A DNA stretch of 64,000 nucleotides from Pelagicoccus enzymogenes (GTDB lineage Bacteria > Verrucomicrobiota > Verrucomicrobiia > Opitutales > Opitutaceae), in contig NZ_JACYFG010000036.1 of NCBI RefSeq assembly GCF_014803405.1, positions 310,001-374,000 of the forward strand. The letters run 5' to 3'. The position numbers were made by a program, and so were the translations under genes. Every line of letters begins with the position of its first letter. Position 1 is the stretch's first letter. A model generated the notes under the pieces. It made no database searches and was not told the origin of the DNA. It was given only the letters and a program-made list of their open reading frames with translations. Positions 50,040 to 56,706 of the stretch are shown here, piece by piece.

Positions 50040-50582
50040 ATGCCGCCAGAACTACAAACGGTCGTCGACGACCACTACCAGAACCTCTACCGTTTCGCCA
50101 TGAGCCTGACGCGCTCTAGCGACGACGCGTGGGACCTGACGCAGGAGGCATTTCTGCGCATCGCCAAAAAACGAGCCTCCATCCGTTCCGCTGCAGCTGT
50201 CAAATCCTGGCTCTATACCACCCTCTACCGAGAATTCCTGCGCATCGCCAAGCGGGGCTCCCGCTTCGACTCCTGGGAAGAAACCGCCCCCGCGGAGAAG
50301 GCCGACAACGAGCCAAGCGACCAAGTCAAGGCTACCGACGCCCGCGACCTGATGGACAGCCTCCTCCAACTCAAAGACGGATACCGCCAAGTGGTTTCCC
50401 TCTATTATTTGGAGTCCTACTCCTACAAGGAAATCGCCGCCATCCTCGAAATCCCGATCGGAACCGTCATGTCCCGACTCGCTCGAGGCAAGGAGATGCT
50501 GCGAGCCCAACTTACAAAACCCGTTTCAACAGAGAAAATCGTCTCCTTCACCGACGAAAAGAGAAAGTCTTCGCATGGATAA
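50040..50582 (+). CDS. ECF-type RNA polymerase sigma factor
   Basis: The 180-residue protein has region 2 (HYQNLYRFAMSLTRSSDDAWD to VKSWLYTTLYREFLRIAKR) and region 4 (LLQLKDGYRQVVSLYYLESY, then YKEIAAILEIPIGTVMSRLARG), with no region 1 or 3, as in extracytoplasmic-function sigma factors. It starts at ATG 50040. Its last codons overlap the next gene by eight bases, the usual arrangement for a sigma factor and its anti-sigma factor. Target promoters are unknown. Confidence 0.93.
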   Translation: MPPELQTVVDDHYQNLYRFAMSLTRSSDDAWDLTQEAFLRIAKKRASIRSAAAVKSWLYTTLYREFLRIAKRGSRFDSWEETAPAEKADNEPSDQVKATDARDLMDSLLQLKDGYRQVVSLYYLESYSYKEIAAILEIPIGTVMSRLARGKEMLRAQLTKPVSTEKIVSFTDEKRKSSHG

Positions 50583-51354
50583 GCAGGAAGCAAAACTCAT
50601 CCTCAGCAGCTACACGCTGGAAAACGAGCCCAGCAACGACCCGCAGTTCGACGCCGCCAAAGCCGTCGCCGCAAACGATCCGGAGCTCGCCAGCTGGTGG
50701 AAGTCGCAAAAGCAGGCCGACCAGAGCCTGAGCGCCTCCCTGCGCAGCTTTGAAGTGCCCGCCGACCTGCGTTCCGCGCTCAAGGTCACCATAGCCGAAA
50801 AGGAACGCAAACGCCTCCGCTTCGCCCAAGCTCGCAAATGGTTCTCCATCGCCGCGGCGTTCGTCCTTTGCTCGTACCTCTTTTTCGAATACGGAATCGA
50901 CCGAAGCGACGACTATACCGGTCCGCTCGCCCAAAGGGCTTTCGACTACTCCGTCGACGGGCCACGCCTCTCCTACTTCGACCGCGACACCTCCAAGCTG
51001 CAGACTTGGCTGACCCAAAACGGCTTTGACCTCCCAGACCAACTGCCGCCCAAGCTCCTAGCCCTGGAAGGCGTGGGCTGCCGCCCTCTCGACTGGTCCC
51101 AAGAAAAAGTGGCCCTTATGTGCTTCAATGCCGACACCGTCTACCACCTCTTTATCGGCATGGAAAACGACTTTCCAGAATTCGAGGCGTCGGAACAAAT
51201 TGGATACGCCCAGCAGGACAACGGCTGGACCGTCAGCAAATGGAGAGACCAAGACTACCTCTTCGTGCTAACGGCCAAGGCAACAGTCGACGAGATGTCA
51301 CAGTTCCTCGCCAGCTACGCGCCTGGAAACGATCCCCTATCCGCAATACGCTAG
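50575..51354 (+). CDS. Putative membrane-anchored anti-sigma factor
   Basis: The 259-residue protein is encoded in overlap with the ECF sigma gene, so an anti-sigma role is inferred. Residues 1-85 form a helical cytosolic part (DPELASWWKSQKQADQSLSA, VPADLRSALKVTIAEKERKR). One membrane helix follows (about 90-105, WFSIAAAFVLCSYLFFEY). The outer domain of about 150 residues contains two Cys (GVGCRPLDW and VALMCFNADTVYHLFIG). The zinc anti-sigma motif HxxxCxxC is absent. The outer part may sense redox or cell-envelope conditions; that is speculation. Confidence 0.72.
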   Translation: MDKQEAKLILSSYTLENEPSNDPQFDAAKAVAANDPELASWWKSQKQADQSLSASLRSFEVPADLRSALKVTIAEKERKRLRFAQARKWFSIAAAFVLCSYLFFEYGIDRSDDYTGPLAQRAFDYSVDGPRLSYFDRDTSKLQTWLTQNGFDLPDQLPPKLLALEGVGCRPLDWSQEKVALMCFNADTVYHLFIGMENDFPEFEASEQIGYAQQDNGWTVSKWRDQDYLFVLTAKATVDEMSQFLASYAPGNDPLSAIR

Positions 51355-51472: not shown

Positions 51473-52363
51473 CTAAAACAGCTCACCCTGCGAGTAGCGC
51501 TTCAACGCTTCCGCATGATGGCTTTTCATCTCCATCTCTTCGAGGATTTTGCAAAGGGCTTCCAAATCCAAACTTCCCGTGTCGAGTTCCTCACCCTCGT
51601 GGTGCGTCAGATTGAAGCCGATGATCTTGCGGTTGAGTTCCATGCGCTCCTTCAGCGTTGGCAGGAGTTCCCGAAAGAGCGGCGGCTTGATATCCGAGGC
51701 ATTGGCCATCACGCCATCGATGTCTCCGTATTCGGTTAACCACTTCACCGCCGTTTTCGGACCGCAGCCTGGCACCCCGGGAATATTGTCGGAGGTGTCA
51801 CCAATGAGCGAGAGATAGTCGACCATCTTCTCCGGCGGCAAGCCCCACTTTTCCTCCACGCCAGCTGGATCGAGCTCCCGCCAACCCAGTCGCGGATTAG
51901 CCGTTGGAGGTGGCAGCAAAAGATGGATTCGCTCGGTGACAGACTGGGCAAAATCCTTGTCCGCGCTCACGATCTGCACGAGGGCGTCCGGTTCCTTGAC
52001 GACGAGACGGGTCGCGTAGGCAGCAAGCAGGTCGTCCGACTCCACTCCTTCCAGTTCGACTAGGCCAAACCCCATGGCTCGGGTAAGCTGCTTGATAATC
52101 GGCACCTGTTGCTCGAACTCTTCGGGGGTCTCGCCGCGGTTCGCCTTGTAATCCGGCAAAAGCTCGAGCTTCTCCAGCGCTCCGCCAAGGTCAAAGAACA
52201 CTGTCACATGGTCCGCCTTTTGGTCATCGAGCAGCTTCCACATCGAGCGGACCCAACCGTAAAGGGCGTTCGTCGGAAAGCCGTCAGAACGACGCAGTTC
52301 CTTCACCGCGTAAAAGGCGCGAAACGCCATGTTGAATCCGTCGATCAGGAGATATTTCGCCAT
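51473..52363 (-). CDS. Stand-alone 5'-3' exonuclease (flap nuclease, DNA polymerase I N-terminal type)
   Basis: The 296-residue protein corresponds to the 5' nuclease part of PolA or to Xni/ExoIX. It has LLIDGFNMAFRAFYAV, VFFDLGGALEKLELLPDYKANR, VESDDLLAAYATR, IVSADKDFAQSV and LIGDTSDNIPGVPGCGPKTA, which supply the acidic metal-binding residues and the helix-hairpin-helix. No polymerase domain follows. It would remove RNA primers or flaps. The start is ATG 52363. It is encoded alone. Confidence 0.92.
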   Translation of the reverse strand: MAKYLLIDGFNMAFRAFYAVKELRRSDGFPTNALYGWVRSMWKLLDDQKADHVTVFFDLGGALEKLELLPDYKANRGETPEEFEQQVPIIKQLTRAMGFGLVELEGVESDDLLAAYATRLVVKEPDALVQIVSADKDFAQSVTERIHLLLPPPTANPRLGWRELDPAGVEEKWGLPPEKMVDYLSLIGDTSDNIPGVPGCGPKTAVKWLTEYGDIDGVMANASDIKPPLFRELLPTLKERMELNRKIIGFNLTHHEGEELDTGSLDLEALCKILEEMEMKSHHAEALKRYSQGELF

Positions 52364-52529
52364 GACGCAGCGAATGCCAGAGCCCTCCGCAGATCAAACC
52401 CAAACGAGCCTGCTTACCAGAGATTCTAGGGGACAATACCCAGACCTATTTTTGGCGGAAAAATCCAGTTGGGCCATTCGCGACCGATGAAGTTGAAGGG
52501 GAAAAGCGCCCTTCAACCAAGATCCACCT

Positions 52530-54020
52530 ATGAAAGACATCAAATCCACCCTCTCCATCCACACTGCAATCGCCGCTGGAGCGACCGTGTCCGGGCTTGT
52601 CTTCATGTCCCTGCCCGCCCTAGCAGCCACTCGTGAAAGCCTGACCGCAAGCCTCGGACTCTCCGGCCAGCTGAACCTTTGGGTCCCGGTCGGCAGCCTC
52701 ATCGCAGCCTGCCACGGACTCGCCTACTTTCTTTCCCTCAAGAAAATCGCCCGCCCACTGCAAAAGCTGGCAACCAACGCCAGCCACTGCGAGCACGGAT
52801 TTGCCTTCAAGACACGTAGCAACTCTGCGGAGGAGGACACTATCAAGCACGCGATCGAGGCCAACAACCTGAAGACCCGCGAGGCCATACAACAAGCCGA
52901 AGAGCTCCAGGAAGAAGTGCGAGATCTCAAATCCCAGCTGGAAGCCGCCCAGTTTAAAATCCAAACGATCAGCGCCGAAAACGAGGAAGCCGTGCAAGCG
53001 GTGTCCGAATTGAGGGTCGAGCGCGAAACCTTGAAGGCCACCAATACGGCGCTCGAAACCACTCTCGAAAACGAGCGTAAAACTAAGATCGGGGTCGAGG
53101 TCGAGAAACGAGCCGAAGAAATCTACGCGCAAATGGAACGGGCCATTTCAGCAGCTTCGCTGAAATCGCTGTGGCTCCCCTCTTTCGTGCAGGAACTCAA
53201 GGAGCCAGCCGCCCTAATCAACGAAATTTCGGGAGGCCTGCGCGACAATTGCAACAACACGCCGATCTCAACCATCGCCGCGCAAATCGAGCAGATCCAC
53301 AAGCAAGCAGAGAAGCAGCTCGCCACGCTCCAGGCCATTCTCGATCGCCAACCCGCCGACATGAAGATCGACGCTCCTCGCGAGCCAGCTGCAGCTCCAG
53401 CGCCCGCAACGACAGGCGAGGTCGAACCGGAGCTTGAGGAGGTTGTCGCCGAAATCGCAACCATCGAAATCGAGGAGGAAACGGAGGATTCCTTCCAGGC
53501 AGGTCATCGCGAAATCGGTCTTTCCGTTCAAGCAGAGCCAGAAGCCACTATCGAGAAAGTCCCTGAAGAGAATCCTTACGCAGTGGAAACGGTCCTGCAG
53601 AAGATCATCGAAGAATTCTCTCCGCGGGCCATGGATGCGCATATGTCCTACACGGTCGACACCGACCTCGGTATCGAGATCGCCGACGAAACCTTGCTCG
53701 GCCTGATGCACTCCCTCACCCAGGCAGCGGTCAATTCCGTCGAGGAGGGAGAAATCACGCTCGGGATCGACCTCACTACCGAACACTTGATTTTCGACGT
53801 CGCCTGCGAGGGCGACCTTACCTTCAGCGACCCCGCTTGCGTCGACAAAGCCAACCGCTTGGCCGTCCAGCTCGGCGGCCAAATCGACATCGATCGCCCC
53901 AGCGAGAAGGAGCTCCACTTCAGCTTCGCCTATCCGATTGGCGACGAAGACGGTGTTGGCGAGGAGGACGACGCAGTAGACATCCAATCGCAGCTGATTG
54001 GAAACGAGCCGCTTAGCTGA
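52530..54020 (+). CDS. Degenerate histidine-kinase-like membrane protein
   Basis: The 496-residue protein has two membrane segments (about 12-33 and 49-69), a long coiled coil (about 105-205), and then a region that lines up with a histidine kinase but has lost key residues. SFVQELKEPAALINEI (218-233) mirrors the H-box SHELRTPL with Gln 221 in place of His. A Glu/Pro/Ala-rich linker (282-345) follows. The last 130 residues mirror the ATPase domain: ETLLGLMHSLTQAAVNSVEEGE for the N box and ANRLAVQLGGQIDIDRPSEK for the final strands, without DxGxG or GxGxG loops. Phosphotransfer is unlikely; scaffolding is possible. Function unknown. Confidence 0.65.
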   Translation: MKDIKSTLSIHTAIAAGATVSGLVFMSLPALAATRESLTASLGLSGQLNLWVPVGSLIAACHGLAYFLSLKKIARPLQKLATNASHCEHGFAFKTRSNSAEEDTIKHAIEANNLKTREAIQQAEELQEEVRDLKSQLEAAQFKIQTISAENEEAVQAVSELRVERETLKATNTALETTLENERKTKIGVEVEKRAEEIYAQMERAISAASLKSLWLPSFVQELKEPAALINEISGGLRDNCNNTPISTIAAQIEQIHKQAEKQLATLQAILDRQPADMKIDAPREPAAAPAPATTGEVEPELEEVVAEIATIEIEEETEDSFQAGHREIGLSVQAEPEATIEKVPEENPYAVETVLQKIIEEFSPRAMDAHMSYTVDTDLGIEIADETLLGLMHSLTQAAVNSVEEGEITLGIDLTTEHLIFDVACEGDLTFSDPACVDKANRLAVQLGGQIDIDRPSEKELHFSFAYPIGDEDGVGEEDDAVDIQSQLIGNEPLS

Positions 54021-54075
54021 GGAAAAGATGCGAGAGCGCCTTTTTCACGCGAGCATCCCAACCCGAGACTATTAA

Positions 54076-54105
54076 AAAAGGCACGCCCCAGTGGACGTGC
54101 CTTTT
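54076..54105. terminator. Bidirectional intrinsic terminator
   Basis: AAAAGGCACG pairs perfectly with CGTGCCTTTT around a 10-base loop. T runs follow on both strands. It lies between the convergent kinase-like gene and the secretin gene, 55 bases after one stop and 21 after the other. Confidence 0.85.
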
Positions 54106-54126
54106 CTACTTGAAATCTAGATGCCG

Positions 54127-56670
54127 TTATTGGCTGCGAGATTCGCTGCCGCTTGGCGTGACCAAGGTTGGGTTCTGGAACAAGGATCCAGGCTGCACCC
54201 CGCGCAGCGTTTGGCGCTTGGGAGACCCACCTGGGCTCACCATGTTTGCCGTCACGAAAATCAGCAGGTTACGCTTGGCAGAGCTTTCGCCCTCCGAGCG
54301 GAAGAGCCTTCCCATGAAGGGAATGTCGCCGAGGAAAGGAATCTTGTCGTTCACCGTGACCACATCTTCGCGCGTCATGCCGCCCATGACGACAGTCGCT
54401 CCATCCCAGATCGTGACCTTGGTCTCCACTTCGCGGACCGCGAAAATAGGCTGATAGAATCCCGATGGAGTCTTAACGGTCGTGCCTCCGGAAATCGCGA
54501 TACTGGGACCACCGTACTCGACGAAGCCCTCGAATTCCGTCACGCGGGGATTGAGGTCGAGCGTGATGCTGTAGTCGTCCTCTTCCACGATTGGAGTCAC
54601 GAAGAGCTCAACCCCGACGTTGCGGGTTTCGAAGTCTTCGGGCGTTCCCGGCGTGATCGTCACACCCGCGCTCGCGGAGTCGCCACGCGTGCTGCCTACG
54701 TCGCTCTCCGTGTCGGAGTAGCGGGTCGGATAACGGAACTCCTGGCTGACGTTGATCTTGGCTTGGTTGCCGGAAAGCACCGTCACCTTCGGCGCGCTCA
54801 ACAGATCCGAGCCTGACTTTTGCGAGAGAGCTCGAATCGCCACGTTCAAGTTAACCCCATCGATGCTGCCGATCACGTTAGTGAAGGGAACCGAGTTCGC
54901 TCCCAACAACTTGTTGCCGGGCAAACTGGGGGGCGAGATGTCGTCGACACGCGAAAACGAATCCGAGTCGATCGTGATCTGGCTCGCCGTCGTTCCCGGA
55001 GCGGCGGCATTGGCGAGCGTACGCAAGGAAGAACGATAAACTTCGCCGGTCTCATAGGCAGGATCCGTCTGAGCCCCCCTCTCGTCGATGACCCAGTCGA
55101 AACCAAGCTCTTCCAACGCGCCCTCCTGAATCTCGAGGAACTTCGCCTCGATCTCCACCTGCTTCACGTCCGTGTAGCGGTTGAGGAGATTGCGGATACG
55201 CTCGAGGTTACGACGCGTTTGGGTAACAATCATAGCCGAACCGTCGTACGCCAAGGTGCTTCCTTCCACTCCGGCGAAGTCGACCCCCGCCTGCTGCAAG
55301 AAGCCGCGGATGGTTTGTGCATCGTTGGCGATCCCCTGCTCTCGCACGCGATCTCCCGAATCCGTGAAGAAAGGATCGTCAAAGACCCCGCTACCTCCCG
55401 CTCCCGAGCTTCCACCGGTCATACGGATCACCGTCGAACGCGAGATCGGGAAGAATTCCGTATCCAAATTCGTGCGTTCACCGCCCGGTCGCACCACTAC
55501 CGCATCCGCCTCCACTTCGTATTGGAAGCCAACCGAGTCGACGATGAAGTCGAGGACCCGCTTGAGGGACAAGTTACGCAGCGTGATGTTTACCGTGGGG
55601 TTCGCTCGCTCGGGATCGATCAAGACCAAGTTAACCCCCTTGATACCTAGGCCCGTGGCATCGAACTGCTCGGAAATCGCACTCAAGGTATTCACCACCT
55701 TGCTCAACTCCACTTCCGTGAAGTTCACGCTGGGAATGATAATGCGATTCAGCTTCTCGGTGAGGGGAAGGGTTACCGTATCCACAACTTCGATTCCCGG
55801 ACGCTCCTCGTAGATACTGGGACGCTGCCAAGCATTGGAAACCTCCTGCAAAAGCTGCTCGCGCGTCTTGAGCTTGTTGAGGTAGCCCATCTCCTGGCGT
55901 TCCCGGGCGATGCGGATGAGGAAATTCTTCGCGACGGCGTTGTTGGGATCCAGCGCTTCGATTTGCTTGAAGGTCGCTTCCGCACCTTCGATATCTCCAG
56001 CGAAAAACTGGCTGCGGCCCCGCAAGTTCAAGACCTCGATTTGCTGCTGCAGCTTCACGAAATCCGGGCTTGCCTCATGCACAGAAATCGACCCCGGAGA
56101 GCCATCGGCAGTCGTCGCCGAGTACTGGGACTTCTGGCGAAGAAACTCTCTTTCGTCCCGCTTCAACTCCTCGATCAGCACTTGGGTCATCGGATTCGGC
56201 TCCAGACCAGAGATAGCCCGCGAAATGGTACGCAGGGCAGGGTCGTACTCGCCTCGATTGGCTTGGCGGCGAGCCACTTCCCGCATCTCTCGCGAACTTT
56301 GCATGGACTTCTCGATACGCTCCGTCTCCAAGCTGGCCAAGTACTCAGCCTCGCGCTGGAGCGCCGCGTTCCGGTCCTCAGTCGAAGTCGAGCTCGCGCC
56401 CGAGCTAGAACCTTGGTTCTCGATCAAACGTTCCACGCTGCCCAAGATCCGCTTAACCGATGCATCGTTGGGCGCGATCTCGACGAGCTCCTCCAACTTG
56501 GCCTTCGCCAATATGAGGTTACCCGAATCGCGGGCCTGCAAGGCTTCGGTCATCAGTCGGATTTTAGTTTCCGTGTCGTCCTGCCCGAACGAGCCAGCGG
56601 CGATCGCCAAAGCGAAACCGAGACTGCACAAGCGAACGAGGTACCTAAGTGTTGGCGTCTTCTTAGTCAT
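54127..56670 (-). CDS. Secretin-family outer-membrane channel (PilQ/GspD type, Amuc_1098-like)
   Basis: The 847-residue protein has a signal peptide (LCSLGFALAIAAGSFGQ). A TPR-like helical N-domain covers about 30-250 (SGNLILAKAKLEELVEIAPND; FKQIEALDPNNAVAKNFLIR). A secretin N-domain follows near 300-380 (NPTVNITLRNLSLKRVLDFI). The C-terminal secretin pore has VEIEAKFLEIQEGALEELGFDW, LLSAPKVTVLSGNQAKI and VPFLGDIPFMGRLFRSE. It would form the outer-membrane gate of a pilus or secretion machine. The TPR-first layout resembles the Akkermansia protein Amuc_1098. ATG 56670 is chosen over a TTG at 56703. It is the downstream gene of a cluster with PilM-, PilO- and PilP-like genes. Confidence 0.88.
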   Translation of the reverse strand: MTKKTPTLRYLVRLCSLGFALAIAAGSFGQDDTETKIRLMTEALQARDSGNLILAKAKLEELVEIAPNDASVKRILGSVERLIENQGSSSGASSTSTEDRNAALQREAEYLASLETERIEKSMQSSREMREVARRQANRGEYDPALRTISRAISGLEPNPMTQVLIEELKRDEREFLRQKSQYSATTADGSPGSISVHEASPDFVKLQQQIEVLNLRGRSQFFAGDIEGAEATFKQIEALDPNNAVAKNFLIRIARERQEMGYLNKLKTREQLLQEVSNAWQRPSIYEERPGIEVVDTVTLPLTEKLNRIIIPSVNFTEVELSKVVNTLSAISEQFDATGLGIKGVNLVLIDPERANPTVNITLRNLSLKRVLDFIVDSVGFQYEVEADAVVVRPGGERTNLDTEFFPISRSTVIRMTGGSSGAGGSGVFDDPFFTDSGDRVREQGIANDAQTIRGFLQQAGVDFAGVEGSTLAYDGSAMIVTQTRRNLERIRNLLNRYTDVKQVEIEAKFLEIQEGALEELGFDWVIDERGAQTDPAYETGEVYRSSLRTLANAAAPGTTASQITIDSDSFSRVDDISPPSLPGNKLLGANSVPFTNVIGSIDGVNLNVAIRALSQKSGSDLLSAPKVTVLSGNQAKINVSQEFRYPTRYSDTESDVGSTRGDSASAGVTITPGTPEDFETRNVGVELFVTPIVEEDDYSITLDLNPRVTEFEGFVEYGGPSIAISGGTTVKTPSGFYQPIFAVREVETKVTIWDGATVVMGGMTREDVVTVNDKIPFLGDIPFMGRLFRSEGESSAKRNLLIFVTANMVSPGGSPKRQTLRGVQPGSLFQNPTLVTPSGSESRSQ

Positions 56671-56706
56671 GTGGTTAGTGGATTTGAAATAGCCGCTCTG
56701 CAATCG

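Follow-up and report, generated by a model that had tools for sequence, protein, structure and literature searches.

Does the membrane protein encoded beside a secretin gene of the marine bacterium Pelagicoccus enzymogenes (Verrucomicrobiota) still act as a sensor kinase, or has it kept the shape of one after losing the chemistry? The gene lies in a window of 64,000 nucleotides (the whole stretch analysed; contig NZ_JACYFG010000036.1, positions 310,001 to 374,000) and forms an intact open reading frame (ORF) of 496 amino acids, running from ATG to TGA with no internal stops (Table 1). An earlier note, made from the sequence of this stretch, had described the outline of a sensor kinase in which Gln stands in for the H-box His. 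We regard it as highly probable that the protein is a non-catalytic kinase homologue. The whole reading, in which a membrane-anchored pseudo-histidine kinase docks a true kinase or a response regulator by a logic like that of DivL or RetS, is the one that we favour, with fair confidence.

Kinship with histidine kinases was assessed by comparing profiles. A profile of nine family members aligned with eleven real kinases over residues 65-275 in hhalign (probability 98.4, E 9.8e-15), and its CA (HATPase-type) part matched real kinases at E 1.4e-5. When slices were compared with 12 kinases, the DHp-type helical hairpin (residues 200-275) gave a probability of 94.5 (E 7.7e-8) and the CA slice (349-470) 84.6 (E 6.8e-6), and none of 50 column shuffles reached either score. 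The coil slice beats its shuffles too, but at a probability of only 1.6. For the HAMP-like slice (60-118) the score is 25.0, where 50 shuffles reached 16.5 at most, yet the probability is only 7.6, and no Pfam HAMP match was found. Because the comparison kinases had been chosen via matches to the family profile, the hhalign test is not fully independent, while the profile search of the PDB and the Foldseek search are. In the former, the CA profile found kinase CA domains from E 1.1e-4, with kinases making up 20 of the 28 matches up to E 1; the others were seven designed beta-trefoils and one ribosomal protein. Among 13 CA members of the family, six matched Pfam HATPase_c weakly (best E 0.0013), and four matched KGK (best E 0.023); a further seven families were matched by one member each, among them SPOB_ab, again weakly (E 0.0093).

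Structural models point the same way. The AlphaFold model of the full protein has a mean predicted local distance difference test score (pLDDT) of 76.6, with linker and tail below 50, and places one unbroken helix at residues 100-240 and a second at 246-273. The 50 rows listed for this model in a Foldseek search of the PDB are all histidine kinases or proteins that include a region of that kind (DivL, RetS, ETR1 and LvrB, the last titled a hybrid response regulator), with E 3.1e-9 for HK853, the best, 9.1e-8 for the VanS CA domain, 1.6e-7 for DivL and 5.9e-7 for RetS. In structural comparison with VIA, where rows no more than one Z unit apart count as tied, the full model matched RetS from the RetS-GacS complex (7n0e_B) with Z 14.8 over 166 aligned residues, the root-mean-square deviation of 40.5 spanning two differently placed domains, and VanS CA with Z 14.6 (119 aligned, 2.7 A). 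Modelled alone, the CA domain reached a pLDDT of 88.0 and a predicted template modelling score (pTM) of 0.83, and matched RetS (7n0e_B; Z 15.8, 114 aligned, 2.0 A), PhoR (Z 15.4, 112 aligned, 2.0 A), DivL (4q20; Z 14.8, 120 aligned, 2.4 A) and ChpT (Z 13.8, 114 aligned, 2.0 A). The predicted fold of the window protein is that of a histidine kinase and not the unrelated one that the earlier note had named as its possible undoing. Both parts that define a pseudo-histidine kinase are found in it, the DHp-type hairpin by hhalign slice and model matches and the CA domain by model superposition and PDB profile matches.

What the fold has lost can be read residue by residue. Residues 219-226 (FVQELKEP) take the place of SHELRTP in kinases, and the profile-profile alignment with 11 real kinases sets PSFVQELKEPAALI over AKMSHELRTPMNAI, which puts Q221 on the His column. 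In an alignment with 14 kinases, inspected by eye, the N-box Asn, the G1 Asp and the G2 loop are absent from all 15 CA-bearing family sequences; of the kinases, all 14 have the Asn and the G2 loop, and 11 have the G1 Asp. The family has A, S, I or K in the N-box column and C or S in the G1 Asp column (A399 and C426 in the window protein), and members from a genus designated g64 carry an Asp one residue before the latter. All 15 also have a deletion of the segment with the lid and the GTGLGL loop. The N-box, G1 and G2 motifs serve ATP binding, and since the Asn, the Asp and the lid with the G2 loop are all missing, ATP binding in the usual mode is very unlikely for the window protein. With Gln221 in the H-box, neither N-box Asn nor G1 Asp, and no Pfam HisKA or HATPase_c match (E up to 10), it lacks the marks of an active HisKA kinase and shows the missing phospho-His and ATP-site residues by which a pseudo-histidine kinase is recognised. 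The structural observation in the earlier note was thus right and unusually exact: the two helices, coiled coil, H-box-like helix and ATPase-like end are borne out by the ORF, the model and the profile alignment, as are the Gln, the lost glycine loops of the ATP lid and an acidic Glu/Pro/Ala linker, which has 21 acidic against 4 basic residues and E, P or A at 37 of its 73 positions.

The gene still seems to be kept by selection. Against its nearest orthologue, L004 (about 73-74% identity; G and L numbers are our handles for genomes and loci), the ratio of nonsynonymous to synonymous differences (pN/pS) is 0.243 for the whole gene and lower in the coil (0.224) and in the HAMP-like, DHp and CA parts, with looser values in the membrane part (0.321), the linker and the tail (0.501; remaining values in Table 1). 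Against L005 the values are 0.293 for DHp, 0.311 for CA, 0.421 for the whole gene, 0.860 for the linker and 0.267 for the tail. Because DHp and CA are low and the linker high in both comparisons, the dead kinase domains appear to be kept while the linker drifts, a pattern that holds between near orthologues only.

Starting from what is established here (the predicted fold, the missing residues, the low pN/pS against the nearest orthologue and the distribution described below), we infer dimerisation, loss of catalysis and docking in the following arrangement. Two closely spaced hydrophobic helices, separated by about 20 residues, would feed a long coiled coil and the DHp-type hairpin, and the latter should dimerise. 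The flexible acidic linker would carry a CA-type domain stripped of its ATP-binding residues. Autophosphorylation should not occur, because there is neither a phospho-His nor an ATP site. The surface of DHp, of CA or of both may instead dock a response regulator or a catalytically active kinase, with the membrane and coil part setting whether docking happens. Since both the DHp and the CA shell still show signs of selection, a role as a binding module is the most likely one; docking of a partner signalling protein as the mechanism we consider somewhat better than an even prospect.

Several observations weigh against this reading. The single window sequence gives no HisKA or HATPase match in Pfam or NCBIfam at E up to 10 (the matches in that scan were weak and mostly to coiled coils), its CA domain alone has no Pfam match at E up to 1, and the pTM of the full-length model is only 0.32. 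Against the more distant L006 (43%), DHp (0.610) and CA (0.656) are no lower in pN/pS than the whole gene (0.628); dS against L004 is about 1.5, which makes the ratios rough, and synonymous sites are near saturation throughout. Two of the eight Pelagicoccus genomes (G002 and G007) are without the long form of the gene though the secretin is present. Furthermore, the immediate neighbours in the window are an exonuclease and the secretin, no partner recurs, and the genes flanking the long form are not conserved beyond G001 and G003.

Known systems offer partial parallels. DivL of Caulobacter shares the DHp and CA fold and has its phospho-His replaced, by Tyr550 where the window protein has Gln221. 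In the available portion of PMC4211667, DivL showed no kinase or phosphatase activity in vitro, and its action on CckA is proposed to be modulated through its interaction with DivK~P. Where DivL possesses PAS domains and an ATP lid, the window protein has two membrane helices and a coil as its input and has lost the lid. The two DivL hallmarks, Tyr at the His site and PAS domains, are both absent, the site being Gln and no Pfam PAS match appearing at E up to 10. RetS of Pseudomonas attenuates GacS and so acts on another kinase, as far as the text available of PMC5992135 goes. Its structure 7n0e_B stands first among the VIA rows of the full model (Z 14.8) and of the CA model (Z 15.8), in each case level with others, and the window protein differs from RetS in having no phospho-His and no receiver domain match in Pfam. 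FasC of Streptococcus is a proposed pseudokinase pairing with FasB (PMC12675982, partial text), and the ChrS pseudokinase of Corynebacterium, evolved in the laboratory, forms heterodimers with HrrS (PMC9491836, partial text). Both resemble the window protein as kinase homologues proposed to act in heterodimers without CA activity of their own; in these accounts FasC relies on its own His246, ChrS lost its CA domain by a frameshift, and each has a known partner.

Could the protein simply be a structural membrane tether, whose coil and DHp only keep a dimer or complex assembled, with a CA shell that plays no part in signalling? The family does have many of its invariant columns at the end of the coil, near which the conserved run ERKxKxGxEVEKRxEEIYxQME also stands. 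Shorter paralogues, matched in all eight Pelagicoccus genomes, also speak for it, those inspected having membrane segments and coil, a hairpin in some cases and not in others, and no CA domain. The constraint on CA between near orthologues is, however, nearly as strong as that on DHp. The version of this explanation that involves a pilus had been raised by the earlier note from the convergent secretin gene, which is indeed there (54127-56703, - strand). Secretin is present in 9 of 9 genomes searched and adjoins the long form in only two of seven long-form genomes (G000, the window genome, and G003); in G001, G004, G005, G006 and G019 it is on another contig than the long form, which other genes flank there. 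A component of a pilus or secretin complex was accordingly rejected on synteny, and we consider a mere tether unlikely.

The phospho-site bears on a second alternative. In 30 hairpin-bearing relatives it holds Gln in 9, Glu in 8, His in 4, Asn in 4, Ser in 2, and Ala, Gly and Arg in one each (the alignment is without the first genes of tandem pairs except L012, the split L082, which has Q at the site, and the fragments L060, L061, L075 and L083). The column ranks 48th of 61 for conservation in the hairpin, where W215, P217, I230, Q259 and Q263 are among the best conserved positions, and it is invariant in 12 kinases. A conserved Gln, as the earlier note had asked about, is rejected with a column that varies across relatives, and Gln221 matters as the absence of His. 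The same note had held that homologues retaining His would refute a pseudokinase. Such homologues exist (L005, L006, L007 and L080, the last three reading HELKTP); since the three with a CA-like domain are just as dead at the ATP site, we take these homologues to point to descent from a form that had the His.

The closest of these, L005 (62% identical), clusters with the window protein and L004 (support 100/100), the latter two pairing with weaker support (92/53), and L080 (H; a partial row, 21% filled) pairs with L009 (Q; support 85/80). Well-supported branches require at least two changes of the His label, but neither the His nor the Gln label clusters on the tree beyond chance (of 500 shuffles, 174 for His and 177 for Gln gave values as low). 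The tree is midpoint-rooted and does not settle the number of losses; in our reading His is probably the ancestral state and disappeared repeatedly, once the ATP site had gone.

These relatives recall ChpT, a dimeric phosphotransferase with a functionally degenerated CA domain, such proteins being counted as possible pseudo-histidine kinases in the accessible part of PMC9981736. The family might likewise be one of phosphotransferases, in which the CA domain is dead and the DHp His takes phosphate from a receiver, with the window protein as a later loss of activity. That could hold for the HELKTP members, His being kept in 4 of 30 relatives, and the dead ATP site common to all 15 CA-bearing sequences is the arrangement described for ChpT in that source. 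ChpT is also among the structural matches, and the SPOB_ab match of one CA member may be set beside it. Spo0B is a case similar to ChpT. The window protein shares with ChpT the DHp and the degenerated CA, and differs in being membrane-anchored, with a long coil and a linker, and in the phospho-His on DHp: its Gln cannot carry one, 26 of 30 relatives are without the His, and the site is among the more variable hairpin columns. We judge this phosphotransferase reading of the family to be quite improbable.

The family may form a natural series, an idea that we put forward as doubtful: the ATP site and lid would have gone first, leaving a phosphotransferase-like or docking survivor, then His would have been lost repeatedly (to Q, E, N, S, A, G or R) and CA or hairpin dropped in some branches, so that in the window protein, a membrane-bound reader, both kinase domains would be pure protein-binding surfaces. 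To our knowledge, few bacterial pseudo-histidine kinases have been studied. No published work on this family was evident among the papers listed in the literature surveyed, where those on pseudo-histidine kinases are, by title, not on this group, and no paper on Pelagicoccus histidine kinases was found in the open-licence literature. Annotation can miss such proteins, as is illustrated by the window protein with its lack of HisKA or HATPase matches. In this lineage the ATP site is dead in each of the CA-bearing sequences aligned, while some relatives (37-62% identity to the window protein) still have the His that others lack. Such a lineage allows one to study which surfaces of a kinase remain under selection once its catalysis has gone, and whether inactive kinases go through a stage as phosphotransferases.

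The distribution of the family is narrow. The long form occurs in six of eight Pelagicoccus genomes, with the frame open in all six. A search of 252 genomes across the bacterial family gave matches in 33 at E 1e-5, of which 19 fall in three genera: 8 in Pelagicoccus, 2 in g13 and 9 in g64 (some of these fragments only). The other 14 gave weak matches only; at the 11 of these loci that were inspected they proved to be ordinary HELRTP kinases. In an order-wide sample, 11 of 372 genomes matched at 1e-10, all from the same family as the window, and a scan of the named genome contigs gave seven loci, in Pelagicoccus and one metagenome-assembled genome of Opitutaceae. L085, a 1261-residue hybrid kinase of the same genome, matched the family over residues 146-273 at E 1.8e-4, a weak coil/H-box match. 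True members, found in three genera of one family, make up a family of pseudo-histidine kinases that is specific to this lineage and has no lid.

That the window gene is a decaying pseudogene, on its way from kinase to loss, is very improbable: relatives from g64 are visibly broken (a stop in L081 of G227, fragments in G217 and G218) and the catalytic residues are gone, but the open frame of the six Pelagicoccus long forms and a pN/pS that falls further in the folded domains speak against it. The broken g64 copies, of long or short form, comprise the in-frame stop of L081, the fragment L075 and the split frames of L082, and suggest dispensability there. That the protein is still an active kinase or phosphatase through unusual residues, with another acceptor or an E..T pair beside the lost His, is hardly credible. 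Thr at +4 from the phospho-site, kept in 19 of 30 relatives, speaks for it, but the window protein has Glu225 there and its ATP site is gone, and even DivL, with its lid still present, showed neither activity in vitro (PMC4211667, available portion).

Neighbourhoods were compared for the window, seven other long-form regions and five paralogue regions, with 20 neighbour proteins searched against Pfam (neighbours in G019 were left out). An operon partner was sought and none recurs except the exonuclease, which stands beside the long form in G000, G001 and G003, and a few genes around it. Other long-form neighbours are TonB receptors, an HNH protein, a transposase, a gluconolactonase-like protein and, in G006, a divergent hybrid kinase of 1322 residues with PAS, HisKA, HATPase, receiver and Hpt domains (L031:11275-15243), downstream of which lie two further kinase-like ORFs. 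The shorter paralogues occupy a second Pelagicoccus locus (L024:8766-9404, L025:8226-10017, L026:8783-10910, L034:8109-9754). Several genomes carry them there as two tandem genes, of which the second encodes a hairpin with Glu in place of the His; genes for TonB receptors and kinase-receiver proteins are found at a distance of several kb. The pair in G005 is directly followed, on the same strand, by a GAF/HisKA/HATPase kinase (L025). Beyond these single cases in G005 and G006, which we take as hints of a partner, the regions compared showed no kinase or response regulator that accompanies the family gene.

Table 1. Positions of the features described, in window coordinates
Feature	Positions	Strand	Details
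Pseudo-histidine kinase ORF	52530..54020	+	496 amino acids, ATG to TGA; 74% and 62% identical orthologues in two other Pelagicoccus genomes
Hydrophobic segment 1, residues ~8-32 (limits by eye)	52551..52625	+	Kyte-Doolittle maximum 1.75; model helix 4-27
Hydrophobic segment 2, residues ~50-70 (limits by eye)	52677..52739	+	Kyte-Doolittle 1.59; model helix 51-86
HAMP-like stretch (weak), residues 71-118	52740..52883	+	aligned in order before DHp (profile-profile); pN/pS 0.126 vs L004
Coiled coil, residues ~100-205	52827..53144	+	continuous model helix 100-240, block pLDDT up to 97
DHp-like helical hairpin, residues 206-275	53145..53354	+	model, hhalign; pN/pS 0.129 vs L004
Gln221 codon (CAG), phospho-histidine position	53190..53192	+	profile alignment, family alignment, codon read
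Acidic Glu/Pro/Ala linker, residues 276-348, predicted disordered	53355..53573	+	pLDDT <50 at 277-345; pN/pS 0.471 vs L004
CA-like (HATPase fold) domain, residues 350-470	53577..53939	+	without lid, G1 Asp, N-box Asn and G2 loop; pN/pS 0.158 vs L004 (349-470)
C-terminal IGNEPLS, residues 490-496	53997..54017	+	IG[NS]EPL[SN] in the two nearest orthologues
Stem-loop between the gene and the secretin gene	54076..54105		-16.4 kcal/mol, z -4.66, 0/200 shuffles as stable

The stem-loop between the two convergent genes is a possible shared terminator; a simple terminator scan (loops of 3-8) gave none in 52300-54300, and a scan for sigma-70-type promoters found none, with 0.5 expected. Elsewhere in the window (50040-51354, + strand), a sigma-factor-like gene, so labelled by eye, overlaps a gene of 259 amino acids without a Pfam match, a possible anti-sigma factor that is 81-85% identical in two relatives. 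The C-terminal IGNEPLS, which stands behind an acidic tail that drifts, is almost unchanged in L004 and L005 and could be a short docking motif; L013 and L052 have a different C-terminal tail, with QR[LF]SS.
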